A model generated the notes under the pieces. It worked only from the letters and a program-made list of their open reading frames with translations. It was not told the origin of the DNA and did no database searches. The translations under genes were made by a program, and so were the position numbers. Positions 765-54,100 of a DNA stretch of 64,000 bases are shown in pieces (within the stretch, counting starts at the first letter, position 1; each line of letters starts with the position of its first letter). Source of the stretch: Siphonodentalium dalli (Eukaryota; Mollusca; Scaphopoda; Gadilida; Siphonodentaliidae); assembly GCA_032622095.1 (NCBI GenBank), contig CP136066.1:10067784-10131783 (forward strand), given 5' to 3'.

Positions 765-765
765 T

Positions 766-2347: not shown

Positions 2348-2477
2348 GCCTTCATGTATGGGCTACAGACATTACTCTTTGACGGCCTGCAGACCGGCTG
2401 TTCATTTGCCCGTAGACTGACTTGCTTGTCTGCTCTCGTGCTGATGTTAGATATATATGGCAACAAACCTGTGAAAG
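2348..2477 (+). CDS. THADA: THADA exon 1 of window
   Basis: The acceptor is ttatttcag|GCC and the donor AAAG|gtagga; the exon ends in phase 1. It encodes FMYGLQTLLFDGLQTG and RRLTCLSALVLMLDIYG, matching the vertebrate block NFMSSICNSLFEALFPG. Earlier exons must lie upstream of the window. A satellite resembling this acceptor and exon start fills positions 1-764. Confidence 0.85.
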
Positions 2478-5400
2478 GTAGGAAAACCTACACGATTTGT
2501 ATTGAATAATAGACAGAAGGCTGAACATTCTCCATTATGAAACATTTGTCAAATGAGCAAATTATACAGTACTTTATTTCATGAGGATCAATTCTGTTTT
2601 AGGTCTGAAAATCCTATTTGCTGCTGAAGGTAAACACGTTGTGCAGCATCGCATTATCACATGATAATCTGGGAAAAACATACAGATGGATAATAAAAAT
2701 GTCATTGTACCATGTTGTGTACAGTTTGTGTACAGTATGTGTACAAGGTGAATTTAGTGATGCTAGCCCACTGTTAGCATCATTAATTTCACCCTCTGGG
2801 GACCTCATTCTGCATGTCCTCATCTGCTATGGGAGACCTAGACACAGATTTACATTCCAAGATGGTGACGTGCGGACTAGCATCACTAACTTGAGAAACA
2901 TCTTTAGAAAGTTTCTTTTTCTTTTCAGTTTAGTTTCTCTATATCCCAAAATTGGCAGACGACACAATGCATAATTGAGGTGCCCAATGGGTTCTCATCA
3001 CCATATTCACCATCTGGGAACTTAAATATGTGTCTAGTTCTCCCATATACAGAATAAGGTCTCTTGATGATGAATGTAGATGCAAATGTCCGGCACAATA
3101 TTTCGAAGCCATATTACATTTGAATATACCAGAGAGATATTTGTAGCTTTCTATATTATTTCGAGCATTATTCAGTTCTTGTTCGTATCTTCAAATATTT
3201 CAGAATCTGCCAGCTGTTTTCGTTTCTGCTCCAGACTCAGTAAGCAACACGTCTGCTCCCTACTGAGCTGCCTCACAGACACATTCGAAGATATCAAAAT
3301 CGACGCTGTTATAGTTCTCACATCAATGCATCAGGCCGGCTTATATATAAAGGTGAGTGACTGGCTTATATATAGAGGTGAGTGACTGGCTTATATATAG
3401 AGGTGAGTGACTGGCTTATATATAGAAGTGAGTGACTGGCTTATATATAGAGGTGAGTGACTGGCTTATATATAGAGGTGAGTGACTAGATAATGTATAG
3501 ATGTGTTCATACACAACAGCAATAACTGATTATTCTCATATATTATATCTCACATGACTTTCTCGCATTCTGATTGGCTGCACGCTGCTATACTATTTTA
3601 CGATAGTACCCCAGTAGGATTCATACATGCCTACTATTCTTTTTCTATTTATAGTAACAAACGCATTTCGCGAAATCGGGTTGCTGCCTGAAGATGTGGT
3701 CAATCGTAAACGATACCTTCTACGATACTTGTTGCAATATTTGAATATCATCAGATTTATTGGTGAATTGTAATGATCCTACAAATGTCCGATCATAGCT
3801 ATCCAATGTATTTAATAGTTTGTCCCTTTGTATAATTAGTTGGCAAGCAGCCAGTCCTAATTTAGTACTGCTAGTGGACGTTATTTATAACTTTCTTTGA
3901 CCATTTTAATTAAGTTTAACTTCTAAAAATTTGCCAAAATGTCTTTGCTAATGACGTATTTATATAAATAAATGCATGAATCATTAAGATGTAACTATTA
4001 ACATAGTTATTCTCCCCTGATCATTAGAAGATTGCCGTAAATTGTAAAATCTGAGACCGATTTCCAAAATTCACAGTGAAATTCACGGTAAATAAAAAGG
4101 TGACAAAATCGGACAAAGAAATAGTGTGCTAGAATTGGCACCAATGTTCAATATAAAAATAATTAATGTCATGTCATTGAAAAAAATAGTGGTCCTTGAG
4201 GAGGAATAGTCAACTCGCCTGAAGCTCGAGGACTTTTCCTCCTCTCGGACCACTATTTTGGCATAGTCCACTCGAAGCCATTCATTATCTATATAATATA
4301 TCTCATGGTGATTCCATATTGGTATCTTGATACGGCATGTGTTCATGCACAACAGCAATAACTGATTATTCTCATACATGTTATATATCCCTGTTTTGAA
4401 ATATAGATATGTTTCTCTTGACAATAGTAAAATATTTTTTTGGAGTAGCAGACGATTGAAAACTGACCAATCAGCAAGTGGGATTTATGTCTTGATCACA
4501 TACACTGTCATTCGTTTAGCTATCCAGATATCCGTTTAGCATTATACAGTTTAAGTTTGTATTGGGATCTCACAGGTCGAAATGATACGATACGCATCAA
4601 CGCTTTGTCATAATTATAATGTTTTGACACACTTTCTTGCCCATTTCCACTTGAATAGACCTTTACTCGGTTAACCTATTGTTATATCAGCGGCTTTGAA
4701 ACAGAATCACATGACCTGGAATATGAATATCACATTGCTATAATGCTTGGTTGTTCAGATTTTACCTGAGTATAGATAGACATGAGTGATAAGGGTGGTT
4801 GTACAATTTTGTTTACATCAAAAGACACATTTAAAATGGAACTATAATTTTTCTTGAAGGTGTCTTTACTTCCTCTATGGTTGTGATAAGGAAATCAATA
4901 TTTTTTTTTTAACCCCAGCCGTTTCGAGATTGTTTTTCCTTGCTAAAATGTGATTATGTGATCAAATGGTTAGGGGAGCAAACTTAATAAAAGCCCTTGG
5001 GCTTGTTGTTTAATCCCCTTTCCAATCAATCGATTATTTATATTATTCTGTCTTATTGTAAAATGTTTGTCAAATGTTTAAATATGTTATTATTTTGATT
5101 GGAATAAAATATGTTTACACAAAATGGTTTCAAATTCGTCGCAATTCTATACAAAATTTATTAACCTCGTTCATTAATTTTGACTTGAGCCTCGCAAAAG
5201 CTCAGCTCAAATCAAATTTAGCGTACTCAGATAATAAATTTAGTGTACTCAGATAATAAATTTCGTGCACTCAGATAATAAATTTCTAATAGATTTGCGA
5301 CTCATTAGAGAACCTCTATTTATACTTTTAGGATCGAGAGGAGTTAGAGTTATTATTCACAGCTGCGACGAAGCTTTCTACGAGCACCCGACCCCAGGAC

Positions 5401-8400
5401 TGCTCACATGCGTCACATCTATTCACATATATTCTGCTTCACGATGAGCTCGGCTCCATAATTAAAAGTCACTACATACAACACAATAGGAATATGGAAT
5501 CTAAAACGATAGATTCGTCATTCCTGGATGCTATTAACATGGGGTCGATGTCCAATCGAACACTGGCGTTGGTCGCTTATCTGTTGCTCCTCCTCACAGA
5601 TCAGCTGAGTGTAGCTGAGCGGAACCTTCTCACGGCAGCTGCTAATGGCCCCATGTATCCCACGCTGCATGCTATAAGGCATCTAATGGACAGAGTTGAC
5701 TTCAGGTAAGACCCATGTATCCCACGATGCACGCTATAAGGCATCTAATGGACAGAGTTGACTTCAGGTAAGACCCATGTATCTCACGCTGCACGCTATA
5801 AGGCATCTAATGGACAGAGTTGACTTCAGGTAACGGCCCCATGTATCCCACGCTGCATGCTATAAGGCATCTAATGGACAGAGTTGACTTCAGGTAACGG
5901 CCCCATGTATCCCACGCTGCATTCTATAAGGCTTCTAATGGCCATGTATCCCACGCTGCATTCTATAAGGCTGCTAATGGCCCCATGTATCCCACGCTGC
6001 ATTCTATAAGGCTGCTAATGGCCCCATGTATCCCACGCTGCATTCTATAAGGCTGCTAATGGCCCCATGTATCCCACGCTGCATTCTATAAGGCTGCTAA
6101 TGGCCCCATGTATCCCACGCTGCATTCTATAAGGCTGCTAATGGCCCCAGGTATCCCACGCTGCATGCTATAAGGCATCTAATGGCCCCATGTATCCCAC
6201 GCTGCATGCTATAAGGCATCTAATGGCCCCATGTATCCCACGCTGCATGCTATAAGGCATCTAATGGCCCCATGTATCCCACGCTGCACGCTATAAGGCA
6301 TCTAATGGCCCCATGTATCCCACGCTGCACGCTATAAGGCATCTAATGGCCCCATGTATCCCACGCTGCACGCTATAAGGCATCTAATGGCCCCATGTAT
6401 CCCACGCTGCATGCTATAAGGCATCTAATGGCCAGAGATCCCACGCTGCATGCTATAAGGCATCTAATGGCCCCATGTATCCCACGCTGCACGCTATAAG
6501 GCATCTAATGGCCAGAGATCCCATGCTGCATGCTATAAGGCATCTAATGGCCCCATGTATCCCACGCTGCACGCTATAAGGCATCTAATGGCCCCATGTA
6601 TCCCACGCTGCACGCTATAAGGCATCTAATGGCCAGAGATCCCACGCTGCATGCTATAAGGCATCTAATGGCCCCATGTATCCCACGCTATAAGGCATCT
6701 AATGGCCCCATGTATCCCACGCTGCACGCTATAAGGCATCTAATGGCCAGAGATCCCACGCTGCATGCTATAAGGCATCTAATGGCCCCTTGTATCCCAC
6801 GCTGCACGCTATAAGGCATCTAATGGCCCCATGTATCCCACGCTGCATGCTATAAGGCATCTAATGGCCCCATGTATCCCACGCTATAAGGCATCTAATG
6901 GCCCCATGTATCCCACGCTGCACGCTATAAGGCATCTAATGGCCAGAGATCCCACGCTGCATGCTATAAGGCATCTAATGGCCCCTTGTATCCCACGCTG
7001 CACGCTATAAGGCATCTAATGGCCCCATGTATCCCACGCTGCATGCTATAAGGCATCTAATGGCCCCATGTATCCCACGCTGCATGCTATAAGGCATCTA
7101 ATGGCCCCATGTATCCCACGCTGCATTCTATAAGGCATCTAATGGACAGAGTTGACTTCAGGTAACGGCCCCATGTATCCCACGCTGCATGCTATGAGAC
7201 ATCTAATGGCCCCATGTATCCCACGCTGCATGTTATAAGGCATCTAATGGCCCCATGTATCCCACGCTGCATGCTATAAGGCATCTAATGGCCAGAGTTG
7301 ACTTCAGGTAAGTTTCAAAAGGCTAATATGTGTTAAAGACATATAATACTCTTATTTCAATTAAAGATGCATTATCCGAATTAAAGCTCCTAAATTACTA
7401 TTTCTTTGGCTTTGGGGTAAAAAATATTTGATTCGATTATCGAAAATTATAACACTAATTATAACATTTTATCTCTGAACTATGCACACTCTTAAGGGAA
7501 ACTACTCGTTAATGTGTAATTAGTATAGAAAGAGTTAAACTTATTATCTGAACATTTCTTAAGGGATAACTACTCTTCGATGTGTAATTAGTATAGAAAT
7601 GGTTAACCAATCTTTTTATTTTGTAGTAACCTTACCGACTCGCTATCCGCTGTATTAACCCATCTTTTTATTTTGTAGTAACCTTACCGACTCGCTATCC
7701 GCTGTATTAACCCATCTTTTTATTTTGTAGGAACCTTACCGACTCGCTATCCACTGTATTAAGCCATCTTTTTATTTTGTAGTAACCTTACCGACTCGCT
7801 ATCTGCTGTATTAACCCATCTTTTTATTTTGTAGGAACCTTACCGACTCGCTATCCGCTGTATTAACCCATCTTTTTATTTTGTAGGAACCTTACCGACT
7901 CTCTATCTGCTGTATTAACCCATCTTTTTATTTTGTAGGAACCTTACCGACTCGCTATCCACTGTATTAACCCATCTTTTTATTTTGTAGGAACCTTACC
8001 GATCCGCTATCTGCTGTACTCTGGAGAGATTGTATCGCCAGATTGTTACAGCTTGGCCATGATATCGCAGAAGTTGTGTCCCCTGTTGTGAATAACTCCT
8101 CACCAGAGGGCCACATCCCAGAATCACTAACTCAGTGTGAGTAGACTTTGAAAGAAGTTTGCATATGACCACGAAGAATCGTGGTCTGTCAAACACAATA
8201 AATATAAGGCCAATATAAAACATTTGCTAGATTTAAATCCCCTCCCAAATCTATTTTTAGTCCCCTCCAAGTCTGAGTTTAGTGTACCTGTCATTTGCTG
8301 AATGAGGTCCCCAGAGGGTGAATTTAGTAATGCTATCCCACACAGCAGGCTAGCATCACCAAATTAACCCTCTTGGGACCTTATTCTGCATGGCCCCATC

Positions 8401-11400
8401 TGCTATGGGAGACATAGACTCAGGTTGAAGTTCCCAAAATGGTGAATATTGTGATGTACACCCATTGATTATACAAAGTGTTGTATGTCAATTTAGGGAT
8501 ATAGAGGGACTAAACTAAAAAAGAAATAGAATCTAAGTTTCTATAGAAATTTTATAATAACTTTTCAGAGAAGATGAAGCCAAAGCAGAATGAGGTCCCC
8601 AGAGTGTGAATTTAGTGATGCTAGCCCACTATGCGGGATAGCGTCACTAAATTCACCCTCTGGGGACCTCATTTTACAAATGACAGACATGCTATAATCA
8701 GACTTTTCAATCCAGTTAGTATTTTCTTCTAACCTATATTTGGTAATACATACCAAATAAGGAATATTACAATGAAGCGTATTGTGAGTCGTATATTGTA
8801 AGCGCACCAAATTAGGAGTCTTAAAATTGTCGTAAAGCACGCGAATCTAAATAAGGAAATGGCGCAATATCGTGACTCATCTTATGAACAATCCACTGTG
8901 TTTTTTGCGAGAAACTAAACAACAGTCGACCTGTATTTTCTCGGACACAAAACGCGTTTTGTGAATAATATCGCATTCATATCATCATTATGCTATACTA
9001 TTAGTATATTCTTGAGGAAATAATCATAATTTGATAATGTTATTTTTAAATTATAACCTACAACGAAGGCCGGCGTCACTTAAGATACTGCTTCAATATC
9101 TAGAACTGACAATGACCATTTATATTAGGAAGAATAAATATGAAAAATAAAATTTACCCTAAATGTTTGGCCTAAAGGTTCACTTTTATGTGTACCCATA
9201 CCATGTATGGTACACATAATGCCAACATCCAGATCAATCATCCGTCGTTGAATGCCACATCCGTGTTCCTATTGTGCTTATGTGATTCCAATTGTGACCT
9301 TAATAGTAAGGTGTGAATTGTTGAAACTTTTACACTCATGAAAAGGTTGGTGTAAGGATTTATTAAAATAGCTAATCGGTATCGGTATGGGTTAAACATC
9401 TGCCAATCGTGATCGGCCTCTCGTTAAACTTTAATTCCTAGTAGCTGTTCCCATTAGGCTTGTATTTTATTGTTTCTGCATAGTATATCTTTATAATGAA
9501 TCCGTTTTTGGTCAGAAGGAAAGTTAACAATCTCTTCTACAATAGTTTCAACCCAATAATTTTTATTGTGTACCCCAAGTTTATCATGAATTTACATTTC
9601 TTTTATAAATTCTACCCCAAGTTAGTTTACATGAATTTACGCTTCCTCTATAAATTCTACCCCAAGTTTACATGAATTTACGCTTCCTCTATAAATTCTA
9701 CCCCAAGTTTAACATGAATTTACACTTTCTCTATAAATTCTACCCAAGCTTAACATGAATTTATGCTTCCTCTATAAATTCTACCCCAAGTTTACATGAA
9801 TTTACGCTTCCTCTATAAATTCTACCCCAAGTTTAACATGAATTTACACTTTCTCTATAAATTCTACCCAAGCTTAACATGAATTTATGCTTCCTTTATA
9901 AATTCTACCCCAAGTTTATATGAATTTACACTTCCTCTATAAATTCTACCCCAAGTTTAACATGAATTTACGTTTTCCTCTAGAAATACTTCTGTAACTT
10001 TTTAGATCCATGACAACCGACATCAAATTATCGCCCATTTACATTCTGGTCGTCTGCTCAGTTAACAAATTATCTGCCATTCAAACGTGCCGGTGGATGC
10101 GATGTCATCACAGGTTCTGACATTTATGAAACAGTGACGTTGATGCCGGAGTATCTTGTTGTCTGCTCAGTTAACAAATTATCTCCCATTTACAGGTTCC
10201 AGTGCATGTGATGATGTCATCATGGGGTCAGACAGTTATAAAACAGTGACTTTGATGCCGGAGTATTTGGTCGTCTGTTCCTGGAGGTCAGTTAAGGAGA
10301 TGTCGTTACTGTTCGGACAGTTATCTCTTACAGTACCTGTCGTTAACGATAAATGCTACCAGGGACTTCTCTACTGTCAACAGGTAATTTATTATCCTTG
10401 AAATAGTGTGTCTGTCATTTGCGGAATGAGGTCCCCAGAGGGTGAATTTAGTGACGCTACCCTGCACTGCGGGCTATCATCACTATATTCACCCTCTGGG
10501 GACCTCATTCTGCTTGGGGCTCATCTTCTGGGAAGTATCTATAGTCTCAAATTAATTTTTTTTAGTTACTTTTTCCCTTCTGTTCAGTTTCTATATCCCC
10601 TAATTTGCAGAAGATAAAATGTATAATCGAGGTGACTACAATGGGTGAACATCACCAACTTTAACTGGGGAACTTCAATATGATCCTAGGTCTCCCATAG
10701 CCTCAGCTGAATGAGGTTCCCAGAGGGTGAATTTGGTGATGATAGCCACCTGGGACCATATTATGCAAATGATAGACACAATATTTCAAGGCTTAATAAT
10801 TTTTTATCCTGTACAAATTGAAGTTTGTTGTTATATATTGAAATGTTGTGTTTCATGTGTCTACAAGTACAACATGTCTTGTTTATTAATTTGTTGCAGA
10901 TTTATGGCCTTCAGCATTCACAATGCATCCACGCCAACTTTGGATTTTGTATGGAACACAACAATTTCAACATCCATTCCTTATATTTAGACTCGACTAG
11001 CAAATTAAATTGAGCATTTAGCACCTATTTAGCACCCATTTAGCACCCATTAACACCTATTTTCAATAATATTCTGATAAGACTTGCAAATTGCATTCAT
11101 ACAATATGGAAACAAGTTGGGGCTCACACGCGATGTCACATGAAACAATTTCAACCAACCAACATTCTGCAATGAAGTTCCAAATATATGAAACCAGTTT
11201 TGTCCAGTCAAGTCTGGATTTAGTGTGTGTGATATTTGCAGAATGAGGTCCCTAGAACAAAAATTGACCCCACCCCAATAATACTTAATCTTGTAGAAAG
11301 GTATCTATCTTCTTCGGGCTATCATTTATCACCAGTCCACAAACTGGTACAATATATACAAAAATAATATTTGTTACATATATATAGGTTTAAAAAATAT

Positions 11401-17400: not shown

Positions 17401-20400
17401 CATTCCACACACGTGTGAGGAATGGTTTGAAAATTATGACACAAGCTGCGATTGAGAAACGGTGTGTTTTTTAGTATCCGGTGTGTAATAATTATATTAT
17501 TCTCCCAAGTTGAGCTAGTGTCATTGCAATTGTCATTTTATTCTCCAGGCATGCCTGAGTTTAGTGTGCCTGTCATTTGTAGAATGAGGTCCCCAGAGGG
17601 AGAATTTAGTGATGCTGTCCCATAGAGCAGGCTAGCATCACCAAATTCACCCTTTGGGAACCTCATTCTGCTTAGGCCTCATCATCTGGGAAGTATCTAT
17701 ACTATCAAATTAACATTGTTTTTAGTTACTTTTTCCCTTCTGGGAAGTTTCTATATCACCCAATTTGCAGAAGATAAAATGCACAAACGAGGTTCCCAAT
17801 GGGTGTAGATCACAATATTCACCATTTGGGAACTTAAATCTGAGTCTATGTCTCCCATAGCCGATGAAGCCATGCAGAATGAGGTCCCCAGAGTGTGAAT
17901 GTGGTGATGCTTGCCCACTTTGTGGGATAGAGTCACTAACTTCACCCTCAGGGGACCTCATTCTGCAAATGACAGGCACACTAAACTCTGGTTTGTCTCC
18001 AGGCCATCATAACCATGGAGCCTCCAGTGACTGCCCGGAGTTGCTTCAAGCAGACAATCAAAGACCTGCTCAGTCTCAGTCTGGAACAAGCTCATCAATA
18101 TTCATTAGATGCAAAGGTATGTATGTGTATAATAATATTCAAGTGTTGCTGGGAATGCCATGAGTAGTGAGGGTGAGTCCTAAACCATGACCCTGCACAA
18201 AAGCAGTGTATATATAAATACCACGAGTAGTGAGGATGAGTCCTAAACCACGACCATAAGGGTGATAACAAATTATAAGTCAACTAAATAGAAAGGAGCA
18301 TAATACAGTGGTTTTGCAGTCAAACAACAGGCACAGATAAATAGTTTATTATATAAATAGTATTATAAATACAGAAATTCTAATCTTTGAATGTCGCTAG
18401 GCAGCATGAGAGCGCACAGTGCACTAATTTCGACAAAGAAATACTACGACCAGTCCAAAATATGTCACAATTTATAGAGTTGGGTATGCCAGAAAATAAA
18501 AGTTGACTACAGTGGTCAACAGCAAGCCTTGAAATAGGGTGTCTGTCATTTTCAGAATGAGGTCCCCAGAGAGTGAATTCAGTGATGCTACCCTGCATAG
18601 CGGGCTAGCATCACCAAATTCACCCTCTGGGGACCTCAATCTGCAAATGACAGGCACCCTATTTCAAGGCTTGATGGGTTATGTAATAGACAGAATGAAT
18701 CTATTATTATGAGTCTCAGTCTGGAACAAGCTCATCAATATTCATTAGATGCAAAAGTGTGTATGGATAAACTAATGAATATTTATCAGAAACTGATTTA
18801 TCAGATGAATGTGATAATGAAGGTGTTAGTTCATGAATTGTGATTATGTCAGATTTAGTAACACCAGATGGACATCACAATGTCACGTAAATAGGATTTT
18901 ATATTTTATTCACTCTTTATGAACAAGCCTGGATATATGATTGGGGACTGAGGTTCCGAGAGGGTGAATTTATTGACACGATCCCACACAGTGGGGTAGC
19001 ATCACCAAATTCACCCTTTGTGGACCTCATTCTGCTTCAGGGAAGTATCTAGTCTCAAATTAACATTGTTTTGAGTTACTTTTTCCCTTCTGGGAAGTTT
19101 CTATATCCCCTAATTTGCAGAAGATAAATTGCATAATCAAGGTGACTAATGGGTGAACATCACCAACTTCAACTGGGGAACTTCAATCTGATTCTAGGTC
19201 TCCCATAGCAGTCGGGACCTAAGCAGAATGAGGTTCCCATAGGGTGAATTTTGTGATGATAGCCTGCTGTGCGGGATAGCGTCTCTAAATTAAACCTCTC
19301 GGGAACCTCATTCTGCAAATGCCCATCCCATTATATCCAGGCTTGAAAGCACTATAACATGTAAGTACAGTAATGCCCTTAATAATGGACTCCTTAACCA
19401 CAGCAGAATTATGTGTAACTTTTCAGGATTTAGTCGGAAATATGGCTTGTTGCCATTCATCGGAAAGCTCTCACTGAGAGCTATCCGATGAATGGCAACA
19501 AGCCATATTTCTGACTAAATCCTGAAAAGTTACCCATAATTCTGCTGTGGTTAAGGAGTCGATTATTTAGGGCATTACTGTACACTCGGTTGATCATTGG
19601 ATTGTTTTATTTGTATCTCAACATGAGCAACTCACTTTAGTGTTCAATTCAGTGGTAAAGTCTGTTGATAGCTTTATCATTTCATTGACTTGTCAAACAC
19701 GAAAATTTTCCGAAAAGCTGTTCCAAGTATACCAATGGAATGTAACCTGAGATTTGATACACTATGAAAAAAATCTTGACATGCCATGCCGATAATAGGT
19801 ACTATTCAAACTGATTTTATTTAATTACTTGTCGTATTGTATTGGCATGAAAATAAACGCTGTTTCATTGGAAATTCAGTGACTCGCGCATGAAAAGAAT
19901 TTTGTCCTTTTTCTGGCAAGGCTGTTTTCATGCTCGAAGCTCTTCATATCTAACTCAATAGGGTATTTTTAAGGCTGTTTTCGTAGTCGAAGGTCTTCAT
20001 ATCTAACTCAATAGGGTATTTTTAAGGCTGTGTTCGTAGTCGAAGGTCTTCATATCTAACTCAATAGGTTATTTTTAAGGCTGTTTTCGTAGTCGAAGGT
20101 CTTCATATCTAACTCAAGAGGGTATTTTTAAGGCTGTTTTCGTAGTCGAAGGTCTTCATATCTAACTCAAGAGGGTATTTTTAAGGCTGTTTTCGTAGTC
20201 GAAGGTCTTCATATTTAACTCAAGAGGGTATTTTTTTATGAGAAGTATATATCTTTTATCAATAGGTTCATGCACTAAACATTCTGCGGGCGTTATATAA
20301 AGAATCTAGATTGGGAGAGGACGTCTCACCTTATATATCTGATGGTGTCAGAGTCGCTGTTCTTGGATTTAGATCAGAATATTGGGCGGTAAGTACTATA

Positions 20401-23400
20401 TGCTTCATTGCTTTTCTGAAATCATTCAGTAATTCTCTTCTTATCCCGATGTTGCTATTATGTTATTAATTGGTTGTTTCCATATTGGCCGAGTTATGAT
20501 GCCGAGGTCTGTCGTATTGGCCTGAGGCCTTAGACCGAAGGCTAATATGACAGGCCGAGGCCTCATAACTCGGTCAATGTGGAAACAACAGATTAATATG
20601 TATTTTATTAATTAGCAACAATGGCAATAATTGTTGCACAGGATGAATATATTAACATAGATATACCATTGTGTGTTTTATTAAATTATCAATTATTCCA
20701 GCAATTCTTATTCTTGTGAACTTTCACAGTACTGTCAGTTTCCATTGGGAATGATATTGATACGGATACATGTAGTTCATCCACGTACATGTATATTTAC
20801 TCCCAAAAACAGTGACTGTCCGTAATTCATGGGAAATCAACTGCATGCAATCTATCTTCTGTCGACCCAATATTGTTTGCCGATAGAGCTAATTCCATTT
20901 CTTTTATAATTTAGTTTCTCTGTATCCCCAAATTGGCAGACGACACTTTGCATAATCGAGGCTCAATCTGAGTCTATGTCTCCCATAGCAGATGAGGCCA
21001 TGCAGAATGAAGACCCGAGAGGGTGAATGTGGTGATGCTAGCCCGCTATGCAGGATAGCATCACTAAATTCACCCTCTGGGGACCTCATTCTGAAAATGA
21101 CAGGCACACTAGACTCAGGCTTGGATAGACATGAGTTCTTGAGTTCACTGACTTAGAGTGATGTGATTATTTTAGGTTATGACATTAAAATAGTCCTTAA
21201 AGATTCTTTACCCAAAAATTGCTTTAAAAAGTGCTTAACCCTTTGGAGAGTATTTATAACGTCATATACGCGATGTCATGCATGAATTTAACATCAATGT
21301 CATAGCAATAAAGATTAATTGAAGTTATGTCTACATAAAAATGACATTTCCTGAAACGACATATATGTCGTTCCTCTTGCGAACCGTACGATGACATATA
21401 TGTCGTTCTACTCGCCAAAGGGTTAAATGTGATTCCCAGGCAAGAGTATGAATTGTCTGAGAATATTTATGTGATAATTAATGTGATAAATAATGTCGGA
21501 AGTTGATGTGTTCATTGAACTTTAAGACTTTTCCCGGAAATAATGGACAGGCCAAATTAAATTTTCTTAATTTGATACTTCTAGGATGCTACCTTTTCTT
21601 AATTTGAGACTTCTAGGCTGCTAACTTTTCTTAATTTGAGACTTCTAGGCTGCTAACTTTTCCTGTTTTTAATAGATATGTTATAAGGATCTTGCTCACA
21701 TGTGATTCTCAGGCGAGTCTTGTTTCCAAAGGCCAAAAAAAAGGTTCTGATTCTCAGACATCGGCGCATTGAAAAAATTGGACCATTTTATTTGGATTTT
21801 GGATTTCACCGTAGTTGTCTACCGGTAACACGAAAATAGGAAACTGTCACTTGGAAATTAGTTATGTTTCAAATATCGAATAGGAGCTAAATACAATGGT
21901 GTATTTGTGGGTATTCAACAAAAGACCATAGGCAATGACAACTATCAGGTATATTGTCACCACAGGCTGTCCAAACCCCCAATTTGTTGGCCATTGTGTT
22001 GAAATATTTCGATAAAAGATCAATCGAAAAGGTATAAAAACCAAATTTAGGAACACAAACCGGAGCACAATACAGTTTGACAAGTGGTGTATATTGGCCG
22101 TGTTATGATGGTTAGTTGAAGTTTTATTTATCATTCATTGCGGTACATATACAGTCTCTAATTAGTCTGTGAAATAATTGAAGATTTAATGATAGTTTGG
22201 AAGATTACTTTATGTTTTCGTTACAACTGAAGATCACTTTATCTTTTCGTTTCGACTTTATTTACGTTCCGTATTTTTATATGGATATATGAACTGGATA
22301 CATAGTTCTGTGTGTTGTTAAAAATGCTTATGTCAATAAAATTAAAATAAATTATACTCATCCCAATAAAGCTTATAAAAGGTGAACAAATAGGCTGGTC
22401 AATTAAATTGCTGACAATTATATTATATAATTTGATGTAATTTTCTGGACCTGGGAAGGTATAATAACCCATGCTTACTATGGGCAGTAAAAAAATAAAA
22501 AATAAAACTCTCACTCCCTCATTGATTTAAAATAAAAATTGCCTGAGAATCAAATATCTTCTTTCTTTCTTTTGTTTTGGCCTACCATAACTTGTTTTTC
22601 ATCATTTTTGATAGATAAGGAACTCTGCGACACTGCTGTTAAGTGCCCTGATGACAAGGATATTTGGTGTGAAGCGAGCGAAAGATGAAAGTACTGTTAC
22701 CAAAAAAAATTGGTAAGTAAACCATGTTGTTTGATGGATCTAGGTAACACATCTGTCATTTGCAGAATGAGGTCTCCAGAGGGTGACGCTATCCCGCATA
22801 GTGGGCTAGCATCACTAAATTCACCCTCTGGGGACCTCATTCTGCTTAGGCCGTCAACTGATATGGCAGACCTAGAATCAGATTGAAGTTCCCCAGTTGA
22901 AGTTGGTGATGTTCACCCATTGGGCACCTCAATTATGAATTTTATCTTCTGCAAATTAGGGGATATAGAAACTTCCTAGAAGGGAAATGTAACTAAAAAC
23001 AATGTTAATTTGATACTATAGATACTTCCCAGAAGATGAGGCCTAAGCAGAATGAGGTCTCCAGAGGGTGAATTTGGTGATGCTAGCCCACTGTGCGGGA
23101 TAGCATCACTAAATTCACCCTCTGGGGACCTCATTCTGCAAATGACAGTGGTGTTTGCACAGGGAAGGCAACTCATAACAGTGGTGTGTGCCCAGGGAAG
23201 GCAACTCATAACAGTGGTGTGTGCCCAGGGAAGGCAACTCATAACAGTGGTGTGTGCCCAGGGAAGGCAACTCATAACAGTGGTGTGTGCCCAGGGAAGG
23301 CAACTCATAACAGTGGTGTGTGCCCAGGGAAGGCACTTCATGCTTTTTGAAAATTTCTAAAACTGTTACCCAAAAAAACTTGTAAGCTGAGAATTCTTAT

Positions 23401-32400: not shown

Positions 32401-35400
32401 TGATGGTAACATGGTGTGATATATTGACTGCTTGGAGCATATGTTCAACTTCGTCACACTCGCCACATCGCTGACAGTCAATTCATCACTATAACATATA
32501 TGTTCTGCTGACAGTCCTGGAAGAGTGAACAGCACAAAATGTCAGAAAATCCTTTCGATTCTTGCTGGAGGCAGAACATTTGTTTAGCTCTGTAAATTGT
32601 GGTACAAGATAATGGCTACCTTATCAAACATGGAATGTGTTATGCTTCAGTGAGAATCAATGCCTGATATCACGGAAAGTGTGTAGTACCACCTACTACC
32701 TGTTATAGGTTAGCATACAAAACATGAACACATTATATTTCAGTGAGAATCAATGCCTTATAACACATAAAGTGTACAGTACTACTACCCGTTATAGGTT
32801 AGCTTATCTATCTATATAAAATCCAAATGTTTGTGTGTGTACCATGCGGCACATATTAGAATACGACATGCAATTTCAGGCCAATCGGTACAAGACAACT
32901 TGAGATATAACATGTTTTCCAGACATTATCAAGTTGATATTTTCACTGATGTTATGCGTTTGTCCAAAGACGAATGAGGTTTCAGCGGGGTCCATCATTA
33001 GAAAACACCAAGGCCATATTGGGACAAAACGCACACTGTTTGCCAGCTTTCTTTATATCATTATCAGCGGTGCAGCAGTGACGATATTTTCCTGTATGTC
33101 ACCCCATCATTTTGACGTGCAATCACTTGGTAAAACATGAACATGTTATATTTCAGTGAGAATCAATGTCCTCTGATACAGCTGACAGCTCTGGAGATCT
33201 CCGTCCAGTTAGCAATCAGTAAGTCGTCCGACAATCACCAAATACTATGTGATATAGGCCAGCTTATGTGTGAAGCGGCACTAAAGAGAGCCACTATCCC
33301 GTTACCATGGAAACATATCCCTAGTTATATAGAGCTTCAGATGACAGCTGTGAATATTCTGCTGCTTTATATATCAACCAATCCAAAGGCATTTAGTTCA
33401 TCCACTTGCAGCAGTTCGACCAATCAGAATATCTCTGCAAGCATGGAATCAGGCGATCAAAAAGCTCCAAACTTGGAGTTAATATTGGATTCTTTGATTG
33501 ACTCACCATCTTATGAAGCCGTTCTGGTGACACTGACATGGATTAAATACTTTGTGACGTTGACCTCTGATTCTGGCTCAAATATAGAGAATTCATCTCA
33601 GGAAGAGGTTGCGTCCTTGACCTCTGATGCTGGTGAGGCTGTTGAGGGTCTATCTCAGGAGGAGGCTAGTTGCAGAGTTCCACTGAATTGTTCCCGTTTC
33701 ATGAAGCTCTGCCGTCCGTCGGAGGAAGTGTTGCAGCAGATAAAAGCATCTCACAGCTTGTACAATAAATTGCTCTGTGTTGGCTTCAGAGACGAGGCTC
33801 ATGAGGAATGTGTGGCTAAGGTTAGTCTTTATAAAGAACGATGTTAATATGAGCTTAAAAATGATATCCTTCATCACCAGATCTCGGAAATTTTTTTAAT
33901 TATACTCCCCGCAACGAAGTTGTGGGGGGTATACTGGAATCAGTTTGTCCGTCGTCCGTGAACACAAATTTGTCCGGAGTTTTTCTCAGTTGTTTTTTGA
34001 TCATTTTCCGTGAAACGTGGCACAGACATCAACCACCATGGGAACCTGTGCACCTGCGATTATAACGTCGGATTTTTCTTGGTGGGGTTATCCCCTCTTT
34101 TTCGACTTAGAAACTTTTCGCAACATGTATAATTTTGTCTGATCTTTTATTCCTACATTATTAGGCAATTTTTTTTAAACTTGGCACAGATATTTAGTAC
34201 CATGGGAACCTGTGCACCTGCGATTATGACGTCTGTCCGACTTTTTTTGGTGGAGTTATTCCCCTTTATTGACTTAGAACATTTTCGCAACATACATAAT
34301 TTTGTCCAAGCTTTTATTCCTACATTTTTCGGTCAATAGGTTTAGGGTTAGGGTTGTGCAATTGCAATGGGAATCTGTTATTTTATAATTTTAACTAAAT
34401 GTTTACTGACATGTGAAACATCTATTGTTTTAAAAACAATTCCTCCTTAGTCGCAATGGGAGAGTCACACCTCTAATTAAATGGATAGAAAAATAACTAT
34501 AAGATAAGCATCGAGGTTATCTCAAACAACATAGTTCGAGATTCAACACATCGTGAAATTTTCTTTATATTTTTTAGGACAAAACTGTACAGGGCTTGTG
34601 CTATAAATATTAATTACATTGGACTTTGTTTTCACTTTATTTGCGTATCAGGTTATTTTCAAAGTCCCTCAAAAATTGCTTTGGGCCATACTGTTTATTA
34701 TTTATATTAAAATATATTTTATCTCACGTGGCTATCTAATCCTAATCCATGCTTGTGATTGGTTGCTTGACATTCACTATTTCCAATAGTTCTGTCACCA
34801 ACACAATAGTCTGATTCCCAATTTTAGCATGCCCATTATTGCTGGGAAATCCCCTAATCTATTTGTAGCATGCATGCAATTCCAGGGATGTAATTTGAAA
34901 GTCATCTCTCCCTCACTGGATAAGTTCAATATTATTTGTAATCGACAAATAGAGAACAATAAATTATCGTAAGCAATTTCTTTGTTATTTGTGATGTTTG
35001 ATGTGAGGATTTATCCTGTACTGTCTTCGCTTCGATATTTTCTGTCAATTCCCTAAGTTCATGCTATACTAAATTTTCGCAATGAATGATCAGTTTGTTT
35101 TTGGTAGAATTGTTTGATATATGGGATCTGGGATGGGAATTGGGAAAGCATGAAGCAAGCTCAATAAAATATAATAAATTTTGCACAGCTTTTCAGTGAC
35201 TATGCCAAAATAGTGGTCCTATGTGGAGGAATATTCCTCCCCTCAGATAAGCTGTTCAATATTTATATAATAATCTTCTCTCATGACTTTCTCTCATGCA
35301 CCCCCGCCTATGTTTTGAGATTGAAATTTAATCACTTAATCATGGTTAAATAATTGCATTAGAACCTTTTTTAAACTAGCAACAAACATATCTTTCTGCA

Positions 35401-36161
35401 TTCTCTTTGCCCAATGGCTTAAAATGGTACTGTACACTAAATCTGGTCATTTATGGGACCATCTCCTTTTATACATATATGCAACAAATGAATGAATTTG
35501 AGTCTTGGATTAGTGCAAAATACGGTCATGTGCTCAATGAACGATGCAGCAAATAACATGGTAATTATATTGAAAATGAATAAATGGCTGGAGTCATAAA
35601 TTCATTTTCATTATAACTGACATGTTATTTGCATCGTTCATAGAGCACATGAGCATATTTTGCACTAATCCATGGCTCAAATTCATTCATTTGTTGCATA
35701 TGTTTTGTTGAGTATAAAAGGAGATGGTCCCATAAAATGGCCAGATTTAGTGTACAGTACCCCTTTAATGGTCGGATTTAGTGTACAGTACCCCTTTAAT
35801 GGTCGGATTTAGTGTACAGTACCCCTTTAAACAGTTTAAGTATATTATGCTTATGTTTTATGATGTTTTTCTCTTTACATTTGACAGATATTTGATATTC
35901 TTTCTCATCACTGTCTGTCAAGAATTCCTAGAACCACATGGAAGGTTGGCTCTGGTACCTACAGAAATACTGATGTAAGTAACATTTGAGCAAGTCTATA
36001 ATAATAATAGTAATAATGACATGTTTATATAGGGGTTAACCCTTTGAGTGCCAGGTCCGATTTTTGTATCAACCCATATACCCTGTGCCAATGCATTCTC
36101 TTATGTATGCGAGTCGACCATAGGTCGCCTCGCATATATAAGAGAATGCATTGGCTTAACA

Positions 36162-36193
<32 letters not shown>

Positions 36194-39100: not shown

Positions 39101-42100
39101 ACACATACTGTACACAACATTGTATAATAACCTTATAAGATTGTCTGGAAAAGTTTCTATCAATTAGTATAATTTTTTTTAGAATTTCTTATGACATTGT
39201 GCGACAGTTTTAGGGGCTATTTTTAGAACATTAATCTGGATGAAAACGTTTGGAGCATACCATGAGAGAGAACCACCTTAATCAAGGAAAATTGCATTTT
39301 AGCTAAGAGATTTACTGCGAATTACTATTGAAATAAATTAATTTTTGTGCCTTTAAAGACAGTATAAACTGTCTTTAAAGGTACAGATGGTCCCCATTTC
39401 ATCAAGTTACAACAACAACATTTCTTCAAAATATGCTTTAGTTATCAGAATCGACTAATTACAACAAAATAATGCTAGCCGCTGTCAACTATGGTATAAA
39501 ATTTCCCAAAACGTGTTATTTATCAATATGTTGTTCAATGAAATATGGCCGTTATTATCACTTGAGTATCACAAAATTTGGCCGTATTACCACTTGATTT
39601 TAGAGTTATCCATTTTCATCCGCAATTTTGTCCAAGACCGTCGGTTTGATGATTTTTTTCTGGGCCACAAGTAAGTACATACCGGTATCTCGAGAAATAA
39701 CAAATTTCAAAAATCGATATCTGAGCTTTGATGGGTGGGTTCCTCGACTCGAATCAAATATTTTTTACCCCGAAGCCAAAGAAATAGTAATTAGGGAGCA
39801 TTAATTTGGATATGCGTCTTTAAATAGTTTATTCACATTATCTATTTTATTCACACAATAGCTATTTGTTGTCTATAAAATAGGATTTATTAAAAATATG
39901 TTCTTCTTGTAATTGTGGTCCATAAGAGATAGACCATGTTTAACCCGTTGATTATTGAATCTATTATCCTGGCTGTTCAGTTTCATTGGAATTGTCTAAT
40001 CTTTATTTGTAGCGATGTTCTGATAACTTGAGCAGGCGACAGGCTGGGAAACACTTTATGCAATTTCATCCATTCAGTTATAGGGGTGTTTCATCCATTC
40101 AGTTATAGGGGTGTTTCATCCATTCAGTTACAGGGGTGTTTCATCCATTCAGTTATAGGGGTGTTTCATCCATTCAGTTATAGGGGTGTTTCATCCATTC
40201 AGTTATAGGGGTGTTTCATCCATTCAGTTATAGGGGTGTTTCATCCATTCAGTTGTAGGGGTGTTTCATCCATTCAGTTATAGGGGTGTTTCATCCATTC
40301 AGTTATAGGGGTGTTTCATCCATTCAGTTATAGGGGTGTTCCATCCATTCAGTTACATGGGTGTTTCATCCATTCAGTTATAGGGGTGTTTCATCCATTC
40401 AGTTACAGGGGTGTTTCATCCATTCAGTTATAGGGGTATTTCATCCATTCAGTTATATGGGTGTTTCATCCATTCAGTTATAGGGGTGTTTCATCCATTC
40501 AGTTACATGGGTGTTTCATCCATTCAGTTATAGGGGTGTTTCATCCATTCAGTTATATGGGTGTTTCATCCATTCAGTTATAGGGGTGTTTCATCCATTC
40601 AGTTATAGGGGTGTTTCATCTAGGGTTGAAATGATTAATCGACTAGCTGTAATCGACGCTGAAATGTCAGAACGTCGACTCTGAATTTTGCCGTTGACTA
40701 GTCGGAACATAGTGTATTAGTTACATGTATAACATTTTCAAGATTGATTCAGGCATAAATGGTGTTAACTGCGCGTAAGTTACGGTAAGTATAATGTTTG
40801 GTGGCACCCGGAATTGACAGTTTTACTAGTATAGACACACACGGTGACCCGACTATTAGAATTAATTGAAAGAATGAAATTGACAACACAATGTCTCACT
40901 CGTCGTTTGAGGTCAAAGAGGTCAAATCACTGCGACATGATGGCAATGATTGACGCGGCTTTATCGTTTGTCGGAGACCGCTTTGATCTAGACACTGTGT
41001 ATATTTCGATTGGTCTCGCACCGTCGGGTTATGATGCGACGCTGTGTGAAGGTTGCTTAAGGTGACGTCATTGGTGCTACCTTATATAAATGATACTGAC
41101 ATTAAGAAATGGCTATCATATTCTACAACGTAGCCTATACTGTAGGGCGTATTTAGTCGAAACATTAACATTTTATAGTGACCCCGCTCGGCACCGGTTT
41201 ATTGGTGATCACATGACTAAACGAAATCTCGAACGCTGATATTAAATTTAAAACCATTATAAAAGATCGTGTTTCTAATCATTATCCACCACATGTCTAA
41301 TTATATAATTACATTCAGTGTTTCATCCATTCAGTTATAGGGGTGTTTCATCCATTCAGTTATAGGGGTGTTTCATCCATTCAGTTATAGGGGTGTTTCA
41401 TCCATTCAGTTATAGGGGTGTTTCATCCATTCAGTTATATGGGTGTTTCATCCATTCAGTTATAGGGGTGTTTCATCCATTCAGTTATAGGGGTGTTTCA
41501 TCCATTCAGTTATAGGGGTGTTTCATCCATTCAGTTATAGGGGTGTTTCATCTAGGGTTGAAACGATTAATCGACTAGCTGTAGTCGATGCTGAAATGTC
41601 AGAACGTCGACTCTGAATTTTGCCATTGACTAGTCGGAACATAGTGTATTAGATACATGTATAACATTTTCAAGATTGATTCAGGCATATAGGGTGTTAA
41701 CTGCGCGTAAGTTATGGTAAGTATAACGTTTTGTGGCACCCGGAATTGACAGTTTTACTAGTATAGACACACACGGTGACCCGACTATTAGAATTAATTG
41801 AAAGAATGAAATTGACAACACAATGTCTCACTCGTCGTTACTCTATATAATTTATACATAATGTATAATTGATTTATGATGTGTTTATATTTCCAGCGAT
41901 ACGGCTAAGTCCAACCTGATTCTGTTCATGAGACATCTGATGTCATCCGTTTATAAGGAAACCTGTGAGGAGAGGGCGATGAACATATCAAATGCATCCG
42001 TTTATAAGGAAACCTGTGAGGTGAGGGCGATGAACATATCAAATACATCCGTTTATAAGGAAACCTGTGAGGTGAGGGCGATGAACATATCAAATGCATC

Positions 42101-45100
42101 CGTTTATAAGGAAACCTGTAAGGTGAGGGCGATGAACATATCAAATGCACCAATTTTAGCTGAGTTTATTAGATATCTTCACGTAACAATTTGTAAAGCC
42201 AGACAAAGATTTGAAAAACTTTGAACCGAGATGTGTTTCTAATTCTGTGCGGTGCGTGCTGGTGCTCATGGTGCACACAGATTGAGTTGACTTTGCCGAA
42301 TAGAAGATTTGTATGTCTGGTGAAATATGTAAGAAATTTAATTACCTATAAGATATTGAAATTATCAGTGGTGTATAACTTTTAAAACTGGATATTTTTC
42401 CATATATTCCATACAAAATGTTTCCAAACATATTGCATTCATTCTACTTGATATATTTGTCCCCAGAAAACATATTTTTGTGGCACTATAGAAATTACCT
42501 ACATCTGTCTGTCCATTTTGTGGCTGTCACACATTATGGGTACATTCATTGTGTAATCAACTCCTCCCACAGTTTTGAATGTAGAGAATTGAAACTTTAG
42601 GAATAGTATAGTTTGTCACTGAGTTATTCCCCTTACTTGAAAAACTTACATAACCCATTATGGAGCCCCAGACTGAGAGAACCGTGCACTGATGACTATC
42701 GTCAGCTTGTATCCATGTGAGGCTCCATACGAAAGTGTTATATAACCCTTTCATGACAGAAGCTGTACCAGTGTATAACTTCCGTATTAAAAAAACCCTT
42801 ATAAAACTTTTGACCATTCTGATTTAAATGTGTTGTGAGCAACCATCCTAAAATTTGGTCTCTTATCCTGTCTTATCACAAAGTTTTACAGGATTTTGAT
42901 GACAATTTTTATGCATTTTCTAACATTCATATAAAGGGGGATAATCCAAGGTGTTCTAGGCTGTTATATTCTATTATTTTGGTTACTTTTATCTTGACTT
43001 CTGTAAACTGCCGCAAGGTAGACTGCTCGGGACATATTTAGTGAAGTTTCCACTACCGAAGTCCAAGACAGGGATACCTCTAATGTAGGACTGTGATACG
43101 AGCATACCCTGCTCATATATTATGGGTATCACAAGACAGGGTGCCTCTAATGTAGGACTGTGATACGAGCATCCCCTGCTCATATATTATGGGTATCACA
43201 AAACAAGTTTGAGGCGTTTTCTGAGAGCAATTCTATCTTGATATATAAATAAATATAATTGTATTGATTATTTTTTTCAGATAATTACTCCGCCGTGTAA
43301 TGACTCCTTGCTGGCTGAAGTGGTCGTTCTATTGGAGACCTATAGCCGCACAGAACAATGCACCGAATTACAACAAGCCTGCGCCTTATTCATCGTTGAT
43401 AATATCAAGGTTCTGCTCGTGGATGCTGCAAACTGTATGGGTTAGTAAAATGCTGGTACTAATGCTGGTATCTCTTCCGTTGAGAATGACTAATGTGTAG
43501 AACTATATATTACTAGCAGGGTGACCCGACTTCGTCCGGGCTGTTTCCCCACGGCTTTCTGTGGATCTAACATCGAAATCCGTCGAAAGGTGCGATTTGA
43601 CCTTGAATTGACCATTTTGAAGGTCAGGTCGTGGTCACGATTTGAACCGTCCAAAACACTACCCGGACAAAAGTACCCCTAAGTATCAAATTTTGTCGAA
43701 ATCCGTCTGGCAGTTTTCCCGGCCATTGCTAACAAACAAACAGACAGACAGAAATCCCAAAATATATAGTAGATAAATTACCTGTTAGTAATGATATCGA
43801 TGGATGTTTGTATGTTATTTAGCTTGATACTTTATATTGATATTATTGGATGCTTGTAAATCTTTCTTTTCTAAATGGATTCTCCTACCCAGTTATAAAA
43901 GTATATATTGGAATAGTCTATTATTTTCGATGGATGTTCAGATAATAAAAGCAGACGAAAGACAGACGAAAAGCTAATACAAGTGTAGAAGGAATTATAT
44001 TGTTATATTCTTTGGTGGGAAATTTTCAGATTATAAGTTCAACAAGTTGAGCTTATTATCTGAACATTTCATCAATGAGTATTTATTATAGTAATGGTTA
44101 ATTTATATAACACTCCTGTATGGAGCCTCACTCTGACCCAAGCAGACGACAGTCATCAGTGCATCATTATCTCTGCCTGGGGCTCCATAGAGGTGTCATC
44201 AATGAGTATTTATTATAGTAATGGTTAATTGATATAACACTCCCATATGGAGCCTCACTCTGACCCAAGCAGACAACAGTCATCAGTGCATCATTATCTC
44301 TGCCTGGGGCTCCATAGAGGTGTCATCAATGAGTATTTATTATAGTAATGGTTAATTTATATAACACTCCTGTATGGAGCCTCACTCTGACCCAAGCAGA
44401 CGACAGTCATCAGTGCATCATTATCTCTGCCTGGGGCTCCATAGAGGTGTCATCAATGAGTATTTATTATAGTAATGGTTAATTTATATAACACTCCTGT
44501 ATGGAGCCTCACTCTGACCCAAGCAGACAACAGTCATCAGTGCATCATTATCTCTGCCTGGGGCTCCATAGAGGTGTCATCAATGAGTATTTATTATAGT
44601 AATGGTTAATTTATATAACACTCCTGTATGGAGCCTCACTCTGACCCAAGCAGACAACAGTCATCAGTGCATCATTATCTCTGTCTGGGGCTCCATAGAG
44701 GTGTCATCAATGAGTATTTATTATAGTAAGGGTTAATTTATATAACACTCCCATATGGAGCCTCACTCTGACCCAAGCAGACGACAGTCATCAGTGCATT
44801 GTCCGCTCTGCCTGGGGCTCCATAGAGGTGTCATCAATGAGTATATAGTATAGACGGATTAAACCACAGACATGTAGACAGGTTTATATAATATGGCATA
44901 TATTTTATATATATATATGTGATCGGGGGGTTCGATGGTATATAATATGGCATATATTTTATATATATATATGTGATCGGGGGGTTCGATGGTATATAAT
45001 ATGGCATATATTTTATATATATATATATGTGATCAGGGGGTTCGATGATATATAAGGCCAAAAAAAAAAAGGGTTTTGGTCTCGGGCAATTTTTTTCTTC

Positions 45101-51100: not shown

Positions 51101-54100
51101 TGGGGACATCACTCTGTTTATATATCTCATGGTAACCTCATTCTGTTTATATATCTCATGGTAACCTCATCTGTTTATATATCTCATGGGGATCTCATTC
51201 TGTTTATATACCTCATGGGGACATCACTCTGTTTATATAACTCATGGTAACCTCATTCTGTTTATATATCTCATGGGGATCTCATTCTGTTTATAGACCT
51301 CATGTGGACCTCATTCTGTTTATAGACCTCATGTGGACCTCATTCTGTTTATAGACCTCATGTGGACCTCAGTATGTTTATAGAACTCATGGGGATCTCA
51401 TTCTGTTTATAGACCTCATGTGGATCTCATTCTGTTTATATAACTCATGGTAACCTCATTCTGTTTATAGAACTCATGTGGATCTCATTCTGTTTATAGA
51501 GCTCATCGGGATCTCATTCTGTTTATAGAACTCATGGGGATCTCATTCTGTTTATAAAACTCATCGGGACCTCATTCTGCTTAGGCCTCATCTTTTGGGA
51601 AGTATCTATAGTCTCAAATTAACATTGTTTTAGTTACTTTTTCCCTTCCGGGAAGTTTCCATATCCCCTAATTTCCAGAAGATAAAATGCATAATTGAGG
51701 TGACTAATGGGTGAACATCACCAATTTCAATTGGGGAACTTCAATCTGATCCTAGGTGCAGTTGAGGCCTAATCAGAATGAGATTCCCCGAGGATGAATT
51801 TGGTGATGCTAGCCCACTGTGCAGGATGGTGTCACTAAATGCACCCTCTGTGGACCTCATTCTGCAAATGACAGATACTATTTGCAGGCTTGATTACTCA
51901 GTAACTCACTCTGGCTTTTCAACTTGGAAATGTCCAAGCCATAGCAGTTGAGGCCTAATCAGAATGAGATTCCCAGAGGGTGAATTTAGTGATGCTAGCC
52001 CACTGTGTGGTATAGCATCACTAAATTAGCCCTCTGGGGACCTCAGCCTGCAAATGTCGAGCCCCATATTCTCAGAGCTGAACTCCATCTATTCATCCCC
52101 TGAAATCTTCCATAATGCAGACTTTTGATATCGATCTATTGATTTTCACAGGAAGCATGCAGCCGTACCAGGCTATGAAGGACATATTACAGACTTTTGA
52201 TATCGATCTATTGATTTTCACAGGAAGCATGCAGCCATACCAGGCTATGAAGGACATATTACAGACTATGATATCGATCTATTGATTTTCACAGGAAGCA
52301 TGCAGCCGTACCAGGCTATGAAGGACATATTACAGACTTTTGATATCGATCTATTGATTTTCACAGGAAGCATGCAGCCATACCAGGCTATGAAAGACAT
52401 ATTACAGACTATGATAACCATTCATAGCCAGAAACATCCAGGGGTTCTCGTTGCTACGCTACTGCAATGGATTGTGGGAAATGATGATGTAACTCAGGTA
52501 ATGATTACTTACATCTGCTTAATGCAAACAAATCTCACTCTCAACCCGGCAATCGACTTAGGTGAAAAAGTACTTTTTCTGGTGTTGAAATGGTTATTCG
52601 ACTAAACAACGTCAACTCGATTATTAAATAAACCCTGAAAGCTCCCAGTCGATTTGTTGAAACAAATCTGCAACTTTTCCCACTGATCACCACAAGCAGC
52701 AGAAAAGTAACGACAAAGAATCTTCAAGAAAATGGTAGCTAAATTATTCAAAGACCCAATTATTAACTCACTCTATTGACCAGGTCAGGCACATCCTGAA
52801 TTCCACTATTATAGTGGTATATAACCAGGTGAGGCACATCCTGAATTCCACTATTATAGTGGTATATGACCAGGTCGGGCACATCCTGAATTCCACTATT
52901 ATAGTGGTATATAACCAGGTGAGGCACATCCTGAATTCCACTATTATAGTGGTATATGACCAGGTCAGGCACATCCTGAATTCCACTATTATAGTGGTAT
53001 ATAACCAGGTGAGGCACATCCTGAATTCCACTATTATAGTGGTATATGACCAGGTCAGGCACATCCTGAATTCCACTATTATAGTGGTATATAACCAGGT
53101 GAGGCACATCCTGAATTCCACTATTATAGTGGTATATAACCAGGTGAGGCTCATCCTGAATTCCACTATTATAGTGGTATATAACCAGGTGAGGCACATC
53201 CTGAATTCCACTATTATAGTGGTATATAACCAGGTGAGGCACATCCTGAATTCCACTATTATAGTGGTATATAACCAGGTGAGGCACATCCTAAATTCCA
53301 CTATTATAGTGGTATATAACCAGGTCATGCACATCTTGAATTCCACTATTATAGTGGTATATAACCAGGTCATGCACATCCTGAATTCCACTATTATAGT
53401 GGTATATAACCAGGTGAGGCACATCCTGAATTCCACTATTATAGTGGTATATAACCAGGTGAGGCACATCCTAAATTCCACTATTATAGTGGTATATAAC
53501 CAGGTCATGCACATCCTGAATTCCACTATTATAGTGGTATATAACCAGGTCAGGCACATCCTAAATTCCACTATTATAGTCGTATATGACCAGGTCAGGC
53601 ACAAAAATGGTTAGGATACAGGGTTTCCGCTACTACGGCAGGCCGGCCGTCCAGCGGCCGCATTCCCCTCCCCAACCTTTACTTAATATTGGTCACAAAC
53701 TTGCCACAGACCTAGCTCAGTCCGCTTTTTACACAGGATGAGCGATCACCGACGCTGACGATTAACCGATTGCAAGGAATCCTACACTTGGTGCCTGAAT
53801 AAGACATGATCAGTAGCGCGGACCTGCATGTGCACAGTTGTCTACACAATCATGGGTAATGCTTTGTCGGGCGAATATTTAGTAGTAATCAGCCTCTCTG
53901 TCAGATTTCTGTCAATAAGGTTCTAACCCACTATTTCCGCTCAAAATGTGCAATATACATCGTATGTCATTGGGGTGGGGGTTCTGAGCTACAACAATGA
54001 ACACAGGTGAGTTTTGGCAGTCGCTGCGACGAACAGTGCATAACTTTTCCCCCAAATTAAGATCTGTATCAAGGGAATGTTTAATTAAAAATAAAACAAT

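Follow-up and report, generated by a model that had tools for sequence, protein, structure and literature searches.

Tandem arrays across splice junctions of THADA and other genes in the scaphopod Siphonodentalium dalli

The THADA gene of the window and its junction-spanning arrays

The stretch of DNA analysed here (the window; G000:C6:10067784-10131783, 64,000 nucleotides) comes from the 2.23 Gb genome of the scaphopod mollusc Siphonodentalium dalli, assembled in 9 contigs, and carries on its plus strand the C-terminal half of a THADA gene in which several exon-intron junctions lie inside short tandem arrays. Human THADA (PDB 8y2o) matches the window exon by exon (E 1.1e-81), with six matching stretches that cover its residues 759 to 1440. 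We placed 21 exons, giving 41 junctions that could be tested. Exons 1 to 16 have AG/GT borders and, with exon-side sites alone, join into a single open frame of 935 codons, of which residues 1-758 match PF10350 (E 8e-73) and PF25151 (E 2.5e-47); the first of them, exon 1 of the window (2348..2477), is an internal exon of the gene identified by its frame, its AG/GT borders and the match to PDB 8y2o. For the exon 17 described in a first-pass annotation of the same DNA, a search by phase and splice signals gave six candidates, none of them convincing, while exons 18-22 were placed solely from their open frames, phases and splice sites and found no match in either PDB or Pfam. A second, diverged THADA-like gene lies on the same contig, with open exons at about 1633-2052 and 3281-3568 of the region C6:171648700-171652400 (L135), and its exon is without the intron found between exons 8 and 9 of the gene in the window.

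Tandem Repeats Finder (TRF), with overlapping rows merged before counting, reported 40 arrays between the first and last THADA exons, together 14.6 of 55.3 kb (26%). Seven of the 41 junctions lie within arrays whose units themselves carry the junction, namely the donors of exons 2, 3, 12 and 18 and the acceptors of exons 4, 5 and 21; these arrays, like all THADA features below, are on the plus strand. At the exon 2 donor (junction after 3352), a 25-bp unit is repeated 6.7 times (3338..3505), and GT is kept in five of six extra copies. The array over the exon 3 donor (junction after 5705; 5647..7311) combines donor-bearing 62-bp units near both of its ends, GT being kept in 5/5 extra donors, with about thirty intervening 41-bp units that are without the donor segment. 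A 125-bp duplication at 25483..25729 (96% identity) takes in most of exon 12 together with its donor (junction after 25592), and four copies of a 51-bp unit occupy the exon 18 donor (41944..42149). Among the acceptors, exon 4 (exon start 7991) is covered by eight copies of a 52-bp unit (7603..8018) with AG kept in all seven extra copies, exon 21 (exon start 52367) by 4.2 copies of a 72-bp unit (52111..52416) with AG kept in 3/3, and exon 5 (exon start 10196) by a 112-bp duplication of 81% identity (10045..10277) whose extra acceptor is dead. In the intron before exon 18, two arrays of one 25-bp repeat (40064-40620 and 41318-41552) are each followed by the same longer segment, whose copies start at about 40621 and 41553, so that the intron contains a duplicated block.

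Four further THADA junctions have detached junction-spanning copies nearby, the acceptors of exons 1 and 15 and the donors of exons 8 and 10. Some 1.6 kb upstream of exon 1, a satellite with 37-bp units (1..765; TRF) resembles the exon 1 acceptor, including intron end and exon start (2334-2369 against satellite 60-96 and other units: 84%, E 7e-5), and it extends about 1.27 kb upstream beyond the window start, where it comprises around 34 copies (L134:3725-4988); a second array, with a 38-bp unit, precedes this upstream part (L134:1907-2673). The end of exon 8 with its donor (18072-18136) recurs at 18712..18776 (91% identity, E 3e-21), the end of exon 10 with its donor (22693-22752) recurs in diverged form at 23362..23421 (75% identity, E 2e-4), and two copies of the exon 15 acceptor (exon start 33157), of 86% and 95% identity, sit 0.4-0.5 kb upstream of the exon at 32626..32755. 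Working from the letters alone, the first-pass annotation had seen tandem copies across the boundaries of eight exons, a detached partial copy of exon 8 and a likeness between the satellite and the exon 1 acceptor. All three observations are borne out here, the eight exons being the seven with TRF arrays and exon 15 through its detached copies, and so is the view that no single event produced the arrays, because unit sizes and identities differ among them.

The extra copies largely preserve what makes a splice site recognizable. Of the 26 extra copies in the seven arrays, 23 retain the splice dinucleotide, and with a scoring matrix built from 87 introns of the same genome their scores are mostly like those of real sites. 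In six of the seven arrays, the copy that adjoins the exon body is itself intact. At exon 18, GA replaces GT in the donor joined to the exon body (after 41969), and intact donors follow after 42020, 42071 and 42122, 51 bp apart and in frame, so that, judging from sequence, a spare donor would have to be in use if exon 18 is real. The first-pass annotation had offered spare splice sites as one reason why such duplications are tolerated; tolerance is indeed plausible, but in six arrays the original exon-side site, not a spare, could suffice, and only exon 18 looks as though it uses one. A stronger form of the same idea holds that duplicated junctions are kept because they are useful, either as a buffer against splice mutations or as a source of alternative protein ends. 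The exon 18 arrangement speaks for it, as do the in-frame exon extensions that the exon 18 spares and one exon 21 spare would produce, but a frameshift or an added stop would follow from using any spare at exons 2, 3, 4 and 12 or two of the three at exon 21, and exon 18 is itself called from frame and phase only; we regard this explanation as very unlikely. Tandem arrays are also difficult to assemble, and repeats could have been collapsed or stuttered at exons. The copies differ by substitutions, however (81-97% matches within the seven arrays), and the feature recurs across several gene families of the genome (see below), which makes an assembly artefact highly improbable.

Frequency of arrays at junctions in THADA and in four other gene families

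How many junction-spanning arrays chance would produce depends on how an array is placed. When each array was reduced to one unit that was then placed at random, 1.8 junction-spanning cases were expected in THADA against 7 observed (P 0.0015), and we take this unit-based null as the right one because arrays grow after seeding. A probe test that included detached copies found 11 of 41 THADA junctions against 3.35 expected (P 3e-4), a comparison in which the control still includes an abundant palindromic element. The window had been picked after the fact for its odd look, and we therefore sampled independent protein families of the same genome, fixed before any of their sequence was seen: dynein, kinesin and adaptin, and then CCT chaperonin. 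The samples comprised 89 of 185 dynein matches (PF08393, PF12774) in nine genes, 56 of 123 kinesin matches (PF00225), 21 of 30 adaptin matches (PF01602) and 42 of 53 CCT matches (PF00118). All 332 dynein, kinesin and adaptin match ends were inspected, and wherever a repeat lay no more than 60 bp away the sequence was read by eye; some match ends in the denominators do not mark a real exon end, which lowers the observed rates.

Dynein showed junction-spanning arrays at 5 of 178 exon ends, where 2.4 were expected (P 0.096). Kinesin and adaptin together showed them at 10 of 154 ends against 2.75 expected (P 0.0006), or at 8 in a strict count (P 0.007) that drops two acceptor arrays to which the exon contributes no more than about 6 bases (L076, L080); an array in L078 was not counted owing to its intronic position. 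For CCT, the direction of the result had been predicted in writing beforehand, and the outcome agreed with it: 3 of 84 ends, donors only, against 0.6-0.75 expected (P 0.04). Pooled over the four families, arrays span 18 of 416 ends (16 strict), while 5.9-6.0 are expected and the maximum over 4,000 random placements was 15. Both boundary types are hit in these families as in THADA, with 12 donors and 6 acceptors, and unit lengths are mostly 34-95 bp, one array having a period of 207 bp with shorter sub-units. Across THADA and the sampled families, the donor arrays contain more exon than intron sequence (mean exon share 0.67, n=16, P 0.015), as judged from few cases with shares read off by hand for each array.

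Several results weigh against reading these numbers as an excess tied to junctions. Under a footprint null, in which whole arrays are placed, 10.8 cases are expected in THADA against the 7 observed, which is no excess, and the same null applied to an automatic sample of the families expects 11.2 against 4. Dynein alone stays without a significant excess, and a probe test of its paired junctions found 6 of 116 against 7.8 expected, with a test set that misses three of the five dynein array cases. An automatic count of exon pairs gave 4 of 190 junctions against 3.3-3.6 expected; we set it aside as biased on finding 11 further cases by reading, of which five were match ends without an adjoining match, three were pairs with low splice scores, two belonged to an unsettled pair and one failed a margin. 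This remedy has its own cost: reading supplied 11 of the 15 cases counted in dynein, kinesin and adaptin, so that judgement entered the count, albeit with each case lying on a TRF array. Treating exon interiors as closed to arrays raises the expectation 1.4-fold, and the strict P becomes 0.011. Finally, the acceptor arrays are without exon bias (mean exon share 0.41, n=9, P 0.46).

A rival explanation is that in a genome rich in minisatellites some arrays will cover junctions by chance and that exon-derived copies are easy to recognize. Arrays filling a quarter of the THADA region, the footprint expectation, the dynein result and the selection of the window after the fact all fit with it. On the other side stand the unit-based result for THADA, the pooled families, in which none of the 4,000 placements reached even the strict count, and the CCT result in its predicted direction, and on balance we consider chance unlikely. 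The excess over random unit placement is about threefold, which is not overwhelming, and the evidence for it is moderate; it is also uneven among families. Of the two readings between which the first-pass annotation had hesitated, the frequent occurrence of boundary-spanning duplications thus finds support outside THADA, and its proposed genome-wide comparison of array overlap with random placement, sampled here in four families, shows an excess for the pool and no significant one for dynein alone.

Some observations made along the way concern the sampled genes and the repeats around them. Two different dynein heavy chain genes carry arrays at seemingly the same acceptor, where the AAA_6 exon begins: one at about position 14084 of the oriented gene (C3:198501400-198522000, reverse strand; L011-L013), the other at about 12143 (C2:179284400-179301400, reverse strand; L014-L015). 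Either arrays arose repeatedly at this site, or an old event was later renewed. Myosin matches were left unused, as many are recent copies, and at G000:C4:274219458-275508405 several closely similar myosin head matches likely represent a myosin heavy chain gene copied in tandem. The palindromic element mentioned above has ends like GCAGAATGAGGTCCCCAGAGGGTGAATTT, often occurs as pairs of about 100 bp and is very common in introns, for example at 12530-12630, 17870-17980, 18550-18660 and 23050-23140 of the window and in many dynein regions too; it is probably a short transposon with terminal inverted repeats. The genome also contains a bantam-like locus that scores 50 bits, under the gathering score of 61, and that hints at a protostome; domain searches for mollusc haemocyanin (PF14830) and arthropod haemocyanin (PF00372), both run without a positive control, gave no hit.

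How the arrays may arise and persist

We think it likely that the arrays are minisatellites of the kind called "mirages" in amphioxus, that is, tandem duplications which span a junction, expand like other minisatellites and are tolerated. A small tandem duplication with a unit of about 25-125 bp would happen to cover a splice junction and would then expand. Where it spans a donor, the resulting order would be exon tail, donor, exon tail, donor, with the first donor still adjoining the exon body and the remaining copies becoming intron; acceptors would be the mirror image. Recognition of splice sites across the exon should favour the exon-side site. Such pairing should leave the mRNA unchanged and the array nearly neutral, and duplications that fall wholly within an exon would alter the protein while junction-spanning ones would be nearly free. 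What we infer in this scheme is that the arrays were born by slippage or unequal exchange, that they are nearly neutral and that splicing uses the site on the exon side. An intact exon-side site with intronic extras explains tolerance and not excess.

One way to obtain a modest excess without any special mutation process is longer survival instead of more births: deletions would erase arrays within introns and would be selected against beside exons. This argument is one of reasoning only, and the junction arrays do not look old, with copies matching at 88-97% in 22 of the 25 arrays of THADA and the sampled families (their ages were not formally compared with those of intron arrays), so that we find it doubtful as the source of the excess. 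The explanation that we would put first, as a guess, is that tandem duplications arise more often at exon ends and that selection removes those lying within exons and lets those that cross a junction survive; the exon-rich composition of the donor arrays fits with many duplications at exon ends of which only the junction-crossing ones survive. A more specific version can be put forward tentatively, as a possibility that we do not favour, in which a duplication process is aimed at exon ends, and at donors above all, throughout the genome, with segments that start in the exon and end just past the donor. Such a process may build rows of working splice sites and may occasionally shift an exon end, as exon 18 may show.

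Comparison with known systems and significance

The phenomenon is of a kind already known from amphioxus, and what is new here is the many cases in a large genome together with a measured junction excess. Mirages are reportedly present in the amphioxus genes for Adh3 (cited in PMC3087553) and troponin C (cited in PMC3902484). Boundary-spanning mirage minisatellites have been described in the amphioxus globin genes BflGb6 and BflGb9 (PMC3087553) and in amphioxus PGBD5 (PMC3902484), with units of 10-160 bp at both boundary types, undisturbed splicing and unstable copy number (PMC3087553, PMC3902484). The instability of mirages is one between haplotypes or cells, and their inner copies are homogenised more than those at the edges. 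The arrays of S. dalli share with them a unit that spans the exon-intron boundary, the occurrence at donors and acceptors, the range of unit sizes and the many copies that keep splice signals. They differ in being found in many housekeeping genes of a 2.23 Gb genome and in the junction excess being measured, and they are known from the DNA of one haplotype alone. Among the papers listed in searches of the literature, with subscription papers mostly outside them, there was no other report of mirages beyond cephalochordates, which does not imply their absence, and the accessible parts of papers on earthworm metallothionein and amphioxus huntingtin held no clear case.

Two further systems are related. 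Human genes in segmental duplications contain internal tandem repeats, likewise at exon-intron boundaries, that can alter splicing and form new introns (PMC2812944), but those repeats are variable and belong to recent primate-specific paralogues, whereas the genes studied here are conserved. In intron gain by tandem genomic duplication, as in the AGGT model of Rogers (cited in PMC3087553) and the potato RdRp case (PMC4974935), the duplicated segment carries splice signals as it does here. The AGGT model takes donor and acceptor from two copies of one segment; in contrast, the seven THADA arrays each duplicate only one end of an intron, with the opposite splice site of that intron located beyond the array.

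Gene predictors may misplace exon ends in arrays of this sort. If duplication were indeed aimed at exon ends, it would continually supply shifted exon ends, and perhaps new introns as well, in an animal outside the lancelets. Should the excess hold genome-wide, the genome of S. dalli would offer a natural laboratory for how the spliceosome ignores strong decoys only tens of bases away, as well as a system for following shifts of exon ends and the birth of introns from duplicated splice sites, and mirages would turn from a curiosity of lancelets into a wider feature of repeat-rich animal genomes.

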